The notes under the pieces: generated by a model | Told to the model about the DNA's origin: nothing | Database searches by the model: none | Seen by the model: the letters and a program-made list of their open reading frames with translations, nothing else | Source: Hyperoplus lanceolatus | Taxonomy: Eukaryota > Chordata > Actinopteri > Uranoscopiformes > Ammodytidae | Direction of reading: 5' to 3' | NCBI GenBank assembly: GCA_026929865.2 | Contig: CM049408.1 | Coordinates: forward strand, 19,666,501-19,730,500 | DNA length: 64,000 nt | Position numbers and translations under genes: made by a program | Shown: one piece after another, positions 7,501 to 10,500 of the stretch | Numbering within the stretch: the first letter of the stretch is position 1 | Layout: every line of letters begins with the position of its first letter

Positions 7501-10500
7501 GCCATATAAGTACATTTGATATCCTGTATTTAATGATTTTATATGCGTGTGTTTTCAGGTGCACAGGAAATACAGTGGAGAAGACTTTGATGAGGACCTG
7601 CGTACAGTGCTGCGTCGCTCAGGTTGTAAGAACGAGAAGATTGCCTTCATCATGGATGAGTCCAATGTGCTGGATTCTGGTTTCCTTGAGAGAATGAACA
7701 CACTGCTCGCCAACGGAGAGGTAACATGCTTCTATCATGATCTGCTGTAATTCAGTTATCAGTACACCTTGGCTGGGGAACAAGTAGACAACGCTATCTT
7801 TAGTTGTCTTCTTGGATATCTGCGTTGTGTGGATCTAACTTTCTGGTTTGTAATATGTTCATTTGACCTGTTCTTTTGTAGGTCCCTGGCCTGTTTGAGG
7901 GCGACGAGTATGCAGCCCTGATGACTGGGTGTAAGGAGGGAGCCCAGAAAGAAGGTCTGATGCTCGACACACACGAGGAGCTGTACAAGTGGTTCACCAG
8001 CCAAGTTATCAGGAACCTCCATGTTGTTTTCACCATGAACCCCTCATCAGAGGGCCTAAAGGACAGGGCTGCCACATCACCTGCCCTCTTCAACAGGTAC
8101 AGGGACACATTGTGGACATGCATTAAGTCATGACATCACTGACAAGCAGTAAATTAATTCTACATCGTAATTGCAAGATGCTCCAAGTTAACTGAAATCT
8201 TTGCTTGTTAGGTGTGTGCTGAATTGGTTTGGAGACTGGTCCACAGAGGCCCTTTATCAGGTGGGCAAGGAGTTCACCAGCAAGATGGATCTGGAGAAGC
8301 CAAACTGGAAAGTGCCAGACTACATGCCCGTTGTCTATGACAAACTGCCCCAGCCACCGTCTCACCGTGAGGCAATTGTCAATGGCTGTGTGTTTGTACA
8401 CCAGACACTTCACCAGGTAGGAATGGGCTTTCCTGAATAGAAAATTTGGATGTTGTGTAAAACGAAGTGAAAAGGTTAAACGGTTTTCTAATGCATATTT
8501 GTTTTTCACTCTTTACAGGCTAATAACCGTCTGGCTAAGCGTGGTGGTCACACTATGGCCATCACTCCTCGCCACTACCTGGACTTTATCAACCAGTATG
8601 CCAACCTGTTCAATGAGAAACGCAGCGAGCTGGAGGAGCAGCAGATGCACCTCAATGTTGGTCTCCGCAAGATCAAGGAGACTGTCGATCAGGTAAAGTC
8701 ATTTTGTGTTTAACTGCATCGAATGTGCTTGCAGAGATTAAGCGAGATTTTATTGCACCAATTTCTCAAAACCTGACTGGAGGTCACTGTATAATTGGTG
8801 TCAGTTGTTGAAAACGGCTGCTTGCTCATGTCTGACCACATGTTTGTATTTGTGTCCTCAACAAGGTGGAGGAGCTTCGTCGTGACCTGAGAATCAAGAG
8901 CCAGGAGTTGGAGTCAAAGAACGCTGCTGCCAATGACAAGCTGAAGAAGATGGTCAAAGACCAGCAGGAGGCTGAAAAGAAAAAGGTACACAGGAAGAAA
9001 TTTAACACTTTGAAGACTTTAAAACACTTTTTCTCATTCTTGAAGACAATCCATAACCTCTTGGTAATCAAACTGTACTCCTTTACTGTTACTATTGTGA
9101 TTCCAGGTGGTGAGCCAGGAGATCCAAGAAGCTGTGTACAAGCAGCAAGAAGGGATCAAGGAAAAAGCGCTGAGTGTCAAAGAGGACTTGGACCAAGTGG
9201 AGCCCGCTGTTATTGAGGCTCAGAATGGTAAAGTAGCACACATACTCACAGAAGTCTTTTTGAAGTGCTTTTGATTTGTAGTCACAGATTGAGAAAGACA
9301 GTCTTCAGCTAACAGCTTCATCTTTACCCGTGTCCTCCCTCAATCACTGCCCCTTCCTTTTCATAATCCACCTCCTTGTTCACCTGATGTTATTAGCTGT
9401 TAAGTCCATTAAGAAGCAGCACCTGGTGGAGGTGCGTTCCATGGCCAATCCCCCCGCTCCTGTGAAGCTGGCCCTGGAGTCCATCTGCTTGCTCTTGGGA
9501 GAGAGCACGACTGACTGGAAGCAGATCCGTTCCATCATCATGAGGGAGAACTTCATCCCCACTATTGTTAACTTCTCTGCTGATGATATCAGGTGAAATA
9601 AAAGAGAATGTATTCTGTGGTTGTTCACTAAAACTCTCTCCCTCTTTGTCTCTGCCTCCCCCTTGACTTTTTATTCTCTACATGCTCCCCTTCTCCCTCT
9701 CACCTTACTACTTCTTTCTTTCAAACGCATTCCTCCTATTCACCTTACTAGCGGTGAGTTCTATTAAGAGGCAGCACCTAGTAGAAATGCGGACAATGAC
9801 CAATCCCCCAGCTGCAGTCAAGCTTGCCCTGGAGTCTATCTGCCTTTTGCTGGGCGAGGAGACCAGTGACTGGAAAAAAATCAGACAAGTTATTATCAGG
9901 GACAATTTCATCAGCAGCATAGTCAACTTTTCCTCTGAGGAAATGAGGTACCAGTGTCAGAACGTCTGTCTAGTCTTTGATGGAAACAAAAATTATAGTA
10001 ATCAATGAGAATATGAATCAAAAGGCACCTGTGATCATTTTGATTTTAGGGTTTCTTATATGATGATCTTATTGAATTAAAATGAGCCAATGAGAACTGG
10101 CATTTCTCACAGTGAGAGAGAGATGGTAGAAATTGCACCCAAAACAAAATTTAAATGATTCCAGTGAAATATTTTCACATCTAATTTTCTGTGATTCATT
10201 TCACATTTAAGTATTGTCCAATTTAGAGTGCTGCTATATTCCTGACTTCTTGGACTTTTTGTACCTTATTCAGTGACTCCATCCGTGATAAGATGAAGAA
10301 GAACTACCTCTCCAACCCAACCTTCAACTATGACCACGTCAACAGGGCATCATTGGCTTGTGGACCCATGGTAAAATGGGCGATAGCTCAGGTATGTAAT
10401 CCCTAGACAATATGAAGATGGTGATTTGATTGAAAAGAGTACTCTTTTTAATGTTTACCACCTTCTACCCCTCTTAGCTCAATTATGCCGACATGCTGAA

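Follow-up and report, generated by a model that had tools for sequence, protein, structure and literature searches.

Tandem exons in the stalk-coding region of dync1h1

The window, the whole 64,000-nucleotide stretch of Hyperoplus lanceolatus DNA analysed here, contains, in its left 19.8 kb, the 3' portion of a fish dync1h1 gene. A simple purpose-written gene finder returned an ab initio model of 46 exons (187 to 19816) encoding a 2,674-residue protein, which, set against the printed reading frames and the known DYNC1H1, presumably lacks coding pieces near 5.7-6.1, 14 and 16 kb. Downstream, Pfam matches marked an open reading frame (ORF) for a WD40 protein (39401-40837, + strand) and a protein-kinase fragment (46013-46396, - strand), an order after dync1h1 suggestive of human DYNC1H1-WDR20-MOK. 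The window also held a Sleeping Beauty/Tc-type DNA-binding transposase piece below the Pfam cut-offs (28991-29341, + strand) and, above the cut-off, a DDE_Tnp_4 endonuclease transposase piece (31153-31455, - strand). An ORF in a dync1h1 intron region (14600-15020, + strand) resembled the Tc-type piece when the translations were compared by eye, and a long GT/AC dinucleotide run at about 56600-56900 gave poly-CV/TH translations on both strands.

The gene model placed one exon, here called A, between the exons at 9107-9227 and 10274-10391, and its homologue B lay in the intron that follows. The four exons concerned are:

9107..9227, + strand: constitutive upstream exon, CC1 of the stalk, ending in its last codons plus one base (gene model; joined reading frame)
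9397..9592, + strand: exon A, covering the end of CC1 and H1, H2 and H3 as far as the beginning of H4; the usual DYNC1H1 version in vertebrates (gene model, alignment; 51 of 117 database entries A-type)
9752..9947, + strand: exon B, alternative version of the segment in exon A (repeat family, frame test, dN/dS; 24 of 117 database entries B-type)
10274..10391, + strand: constitutive downstream exon, H4, H5 and the start of H6 (gene model; joined reading frame)

The initial annotation had described two 196-nt exons, 159 nt apart, with their own acceptors and donors and equal phases, and the coordinates and GT-AG borders were verified. A and B are thus homologous neighbours of equal length and identical phase, each with an AG acceptor and a GT donor, separated by an intron of 159 nt. 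A repeat search grouped 9390-9594 with 9745-9949 in a single family of two copies, 72% identical and spaced 355 nt apart.

We joined the exons in silico in all four combinations. Joining A alone or B alone to the flanking exons gave an open stalk reading frame, whereas joining A and then B produced a stop four codons past the junction, and skipping both produced a stop after about seven codons. Because 196 nt amount to 65 codons plus one base, the two exons exclude each other at the level of the full protein. The frame test also ruled out a reading of B as a cassette exon, since inclusion of both or neither leads to an early stop.

In the in-phase alignment, 139 of 196 bases matched between A and B, as did 47 of 66 residues with inclusion of the codon shared with the next exon; without that codon the figure is 46 of 65, the same agreement as originally reported. 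The 57 base differences were distributed 14/7/36 over codon positions 1, 2 and 3. The NG86 estimates were dN 0.21, dS 1.83 and dN/dS 0.11, indicating the purifying selection that had been proposed for both copies, and the dS is far above that of a recent or artefactual copy.

Three stretches around the exons are candidates for elements controlling the choice between them:

9622..9751, + strand: pyrimidine-rich tract before exon B, possible splicing-control element (79% C+T in 130 nt)
9379..9405, + strand: possible RNA stem, left arm over the exon A acceptor (inverted repeat; duplex -32.6 kcal/mol)
9571..9597, + strand: possible RNA stem, right arm over the exon A donor (inverted repeat; fold z -2.74)

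The pyrimidine content before B was the highest of 34 acceptor regions (A, 65%; best of the 32 other introns, 72%), and exon pairs controlled by polypyrimidine-tract proteins show such tracts. The acceptor and donor of A could pair over 19 consecutive positions, the strongest such duplex of the 44 exons scored (best of the 42 other exons, -26.4 kcal/mol; exon B, -12.5 kcal/mol), and none of 200 shuffles was as stable as the local fold over A, a comparison made on one sequence. Such a stem could hide the splice sites of A and so favour B. On a rough matrix, the donor of B scored -0.7 and that of A 2.3. A similar translated intron flank (V, H/N/Y, L, M/I, L, I/L) preceded exon A in 13 of 33 A-type genomic ORFs, one of the 34 listed being excluded for too short a flank; the source species could be close kin, and a conserved branch point could equally account for the similarity.

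B-type exons across vertebrates

With exon B alone as the scored segment, a database search brought up 117 dynein entries. Among them, 24 entries from 23 species, ranging from jawless fish to reptiles, were B-type, so B is no local oddity, and 51 were vertebrate A-type. The remaining 42, namely invertebrates, fungi, unnamed sequences, a gapped turtle A (P0088) and a low-quality Coryphaenoides model containing both copies (P0001), were left out of the sorting. Sorting by identity alone had already marked the same 24 entries as nearer to B. The B-type entries came from the following groups:

Jawless fish: Lampetra, Myxine
Ray-finned fish: Tetraodon, Gasterosteus, Cyclopterus, Onychostoma, Sinocyclocheilus, Conger, Danio (isoform X2), Oncorhynchus (two entries), Salmo, Acipenser, Erpetoichthys
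Frogs: Xenopus, Mixophyes, Eleutherodactylus, Ranitomeya (two species), Dendrobates, Engystomops, Phyllobates
Reptiles: Chrysemys (turtle), Ophiophagus (cobra)

The comparison across vertebrates that the initial annotation had proposed thus recovered a B-type second exon well outside the source species, and the stops or frameshifts in relatives that would have spoken against a working copy B were seen in none of the 24 entries. The exon pair itself proved real; its range is wider than had been supposed, extending beyond fish, and both versions already stand in the database as isoforms X1 and X2. These NCBI isoforms are predictions. In Xenopus laevis, X1 (A, P0070) and X2 (B, P0072) are each 4,645 residues long and differ at 21 residues, and in Mixophyes fleayi, X1 (P0038) and X2 (P0071), also 4,645 residues each, differ at 23; all differences in both pairs lie inside this exon, between residues 3296 and 3358. 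The in-silico joins and these two frog pairs agree in giving a usable mRNA with exactly one of the two exons.

B-type exons also occurred in genomic sequences. A and B stood in one genomic ORF on two further contigs (P0238 and P0239), 56 and 38 codons apart. A profile search of short fragments added 18 B-type ORFs among the 120 listed of 422 matches; no spliced vertebrate fragment was present among these 120, the vertebrate matches being genomic exon ORFs. A search among mid-length fragments gave 61 matches. They included one vertebrate A fragment that was spliced and lacked B (P0250), together with two Coryphaenoides models, P0240 with both copies and P0254 with A. In neither search did B appear spliced to its two flanking exons in a vertebrate fragment, which counts against the reading preferred below. 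In the B-type genomic ORF P0152, the H2-H3 loop was longer by one E, and the intron flank resembled the one in P0136; this may reflect drift of B in some lineage.

We built a tree of 41 rows and 66 columns from 18 B-type sequences and the B of the window, eight A-type sequences and the A of the window, and 13 invertebrates. The B rows clustered, with frogs and ray-finned/percomorph fish forming sub-groups. The tree was only weakly resolved: the split of B from the rest had a support of 64/96 and needed two changes, with one long-branch flatworm falling inside, and of 200 bootstrap trees 36% had a branch that set B apart from all other rows. The presence of B-type sequences in both lamprey and hagfish points to a duplication older than these lineages, a dating based on their B forms only. 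B evolved faster than A: the B rows matched the window's B at 48-62 of 66 residues, the closest being Tetraodon B (62/66), and the A rows matched the window's A at 60-64 of 66. Gene models of Soboliphyme (nematode, P0002), Medioppia (mite, P0003) and Glossina (tsetse fly, P0011) contained a second, partly incomplete copy of the microtubule-binding domain (MTBD) segment, so duplication of this segment has taken place across several groups of animals, whether through shared ancestry or independently.

All mammalian (n=18) and bird (n=2) entries found were A-type, although the entries represent 90% clusters, which may hide a B isoform, so that these A entries are no proof of its absence.

Changes in the microtubule-binding domain

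With exon B in use, the stalk remained a DYNC1H1-like MTBD: it matched PF12777 with 96.7 bits (cut-off 24), and its best solved relatives were cytoplasmic dynein 1 heavy chain 1, without gaps in the printed alignments. We placed the exon on a model that AF2 gave for an A-type fragment from Coryphaenoides (pLDDT 81-89 in the exon block and 68.8 over the whole model; pTM 0.46). In this model, exon residues 1-3 form the end of CC1, followed by helices at 7-14, 21-33 and 41-48 and a short piece at 53-58, with the next helix starting just after the exon. The 14-residue stretch that had been reported as an unchanged H1 is indeed invariant; by the order of helices in the model it lies in the second helix, H2 (residues 21-33), and the label H1 belongs to the first short helix, which carries the A-to-B changes K7R and V13M. 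Altogether, the A and B proteins of the window differ at 19 residues in the stalk base, H1, the H2-H3 loop, H3 and the segment leading up to H4, and the core helix H2 is kept.

A first count of fixed differences used 15 B and 5 A rows, and a later one all 24 B and 51 A entries together with the two sequences of the window. At seven positions, the two groups had no residue in common (human numbering, A versus B):

3297: K versus S
3331: S versus E
3337: Q versus K
3340: S versus L, P, Q or T
3349: P versus G, S or T
3350: T versus N or S
3356: A or G versus I, P, S or T

Three of these, 3297, 3331 and 3337, had also served to sort the rows (exon positions 3 and 37 for both groups, 43 for B). 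The seven positions lie around K3336 and R3344, two residues mutated in human cortical malformations (PMC3824068). S3331E and Q3337K adjoin K3336, and K3336N is a cause of human brain malformation. The window's B retained both K3336 and R3344; among the 24 B entries, K3336 was replaced by R in two (Myxine and Phyllobates) and R3344 by K in one (Gasterosteus).

According to the cryo-EM work in PMC6629372, CC1 and H1 shift together over the tubulin dimer on binding, H2-H6 change little, and the primed interface is formed by H2, H3, H4 and H6. On this basis, the A/B exon pair exchanges the moving element together with part of the interface.

A probable second dynein-1 from one gene

We consider it very probable that dync1h1 uses A and B as mutually exclusive exons, derived from an ancient tandem duplication, and that they provide a second dynein-1 with a probably shifted microtubule affinity or release. 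The initial reading of two functional, alternatively used MTBD exons drew its support from the frame logic, dN/dS, the frog isoform pairs and the 24 B entries. The proposed course begins with a tandem duplication no younger than the ancestor that lampreys, hagfish and jawed vertebrates share. Splicing would pick either A or B, so that only an A-dynein or a B-dynein heavy chain would be made in full, and the pyrimidine tract and the RNA stem may steer this choice. CC1 with H1 is the element that moves between weak and strong microtubule binding, and K3297S, S3331E, Q3337K and the four other differences most likely shift microtubule affinity or release. B-dynein would then be an additional dynein-1, used in particular tissues, at particular stages or under particular conditions. 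One gene probably yields two motors with a different hold on the track.

Several other explanations were weighed against this one. An origin of the second exon in faulty assembly, or in a recent duplication confined to this fish, has practically no chance of being true: no supporting point was found, the dS of 1.83 between the copies is far too high, B-type exons occur in 23 other species, and the tandem A-B arrangement recurs on two other contigs. Both an assembly duplicate and a recent private duplication were therefore rejected. It is also very unlikely that B is a decaying or unused copy whose frame has not yet been lost. The low score of its donor and its faster evolution would fit such decay, but they have to be set against a dN/dS of 0.11 at near-saturated dS, against the persistence of the frame and of B-specific residues across 24 entries that range from jawless fish to reptiles, and against annotated full-length B isoforms; the conserved frame and residues, together with the dN/dS, led us to reject an unused exon copy.

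Somewhat less remote, if still improbable, is a role of the pair mainly in setting the heavy-chain level, with inclusion of both exons or neither sending the message to decay and the B protein mattering little. The early stops in both of these joins agree with such a role, and the pyrimidine tract and the stable stem at the splice sites of A could steer inclusion; however, this explanation leaves the low dN/dS and the seven positions distinct between 24 B and 51 A rows unexplained. A further proposal, which we regard as doubtful, holds that B gives vertebrate dynein-1 a second grip dating back to the origin of the vertebrates, that cold-blooded lineages have retained it while mammals, and perhaps birds, have lost or silenced it, and that B-dynein sustains transport at changing temperature or in particular cells, as a splicing equivalent of the motor recoding known from squid. 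All 23 B-type species are ectotherms and the mammalian and bird entries were A-type, but many fish, frog and reptile entries also showed A only.

The preferred reading, two mutually exclusive exons giving two dynein-1 motors, has several parallels. A mutually exclusive exon of the Schistosoma cytoplasmic DHC1 has been published as a test case, with no domain or function given in the available passages (PMC3228551). SmDHC1 resembles the A/B pair in being a cytoplasmic DHC1 with two equal-length homologous exons and split codons, of which one is used at a time; it differs in belonging to a flatworm, and those passages contain no vertebrate pair. Arthropod muscle myosin heavy chain is likewise a single motor gene whose mutually exclusive exon clusters fine-tune the motor domain (PMC3228551), but it acts on actin and has many clusters, whereas dynein has a single pair at its track-binding tip. 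In squid, RNA recoding of kinesin and dynein gives variants of one motor gene with changed motility, there tied to tissue and temperature; it works by RNA editing instead of exon choice, and the dynein substitutions were tested in yeast dynein (PMC10577124, available passages). The closest counterparts are the predicted vertebrate isoforms, Danio rerio X2 (B) and Xenopus laevis X1 (A) and X2 (B), which are A and B themselves but stand as annotation only, with no interpreting paper found in the open literature.

Nor did the open literature yield a description of the vertebrate dync1h1 exon pair. Diversity of dynein-1 is usually credited to its partners. Mouse and human DYNC1H1, with 78 exons, apparently have a single isoform according to a review (PMC3824068). 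DYNC1H1 was absent from the main text of PMC5740500, on human mutually exclusive splicing; passages of PMC3583065 and PMC2880287 contained nothing on this exon, and a passage of PMC10916854 concerned a splicing tool.

The vertebrate pair adds to the known mutually exclusive exons at a location that is unusually informative. Should a single gene supply two microtubule-binding tips in many vertebrates, studies in zebrafish and Xenopus have dealt with a mix of two motors. The A/B pair is a natural experiment on the determinants of dynein grip.
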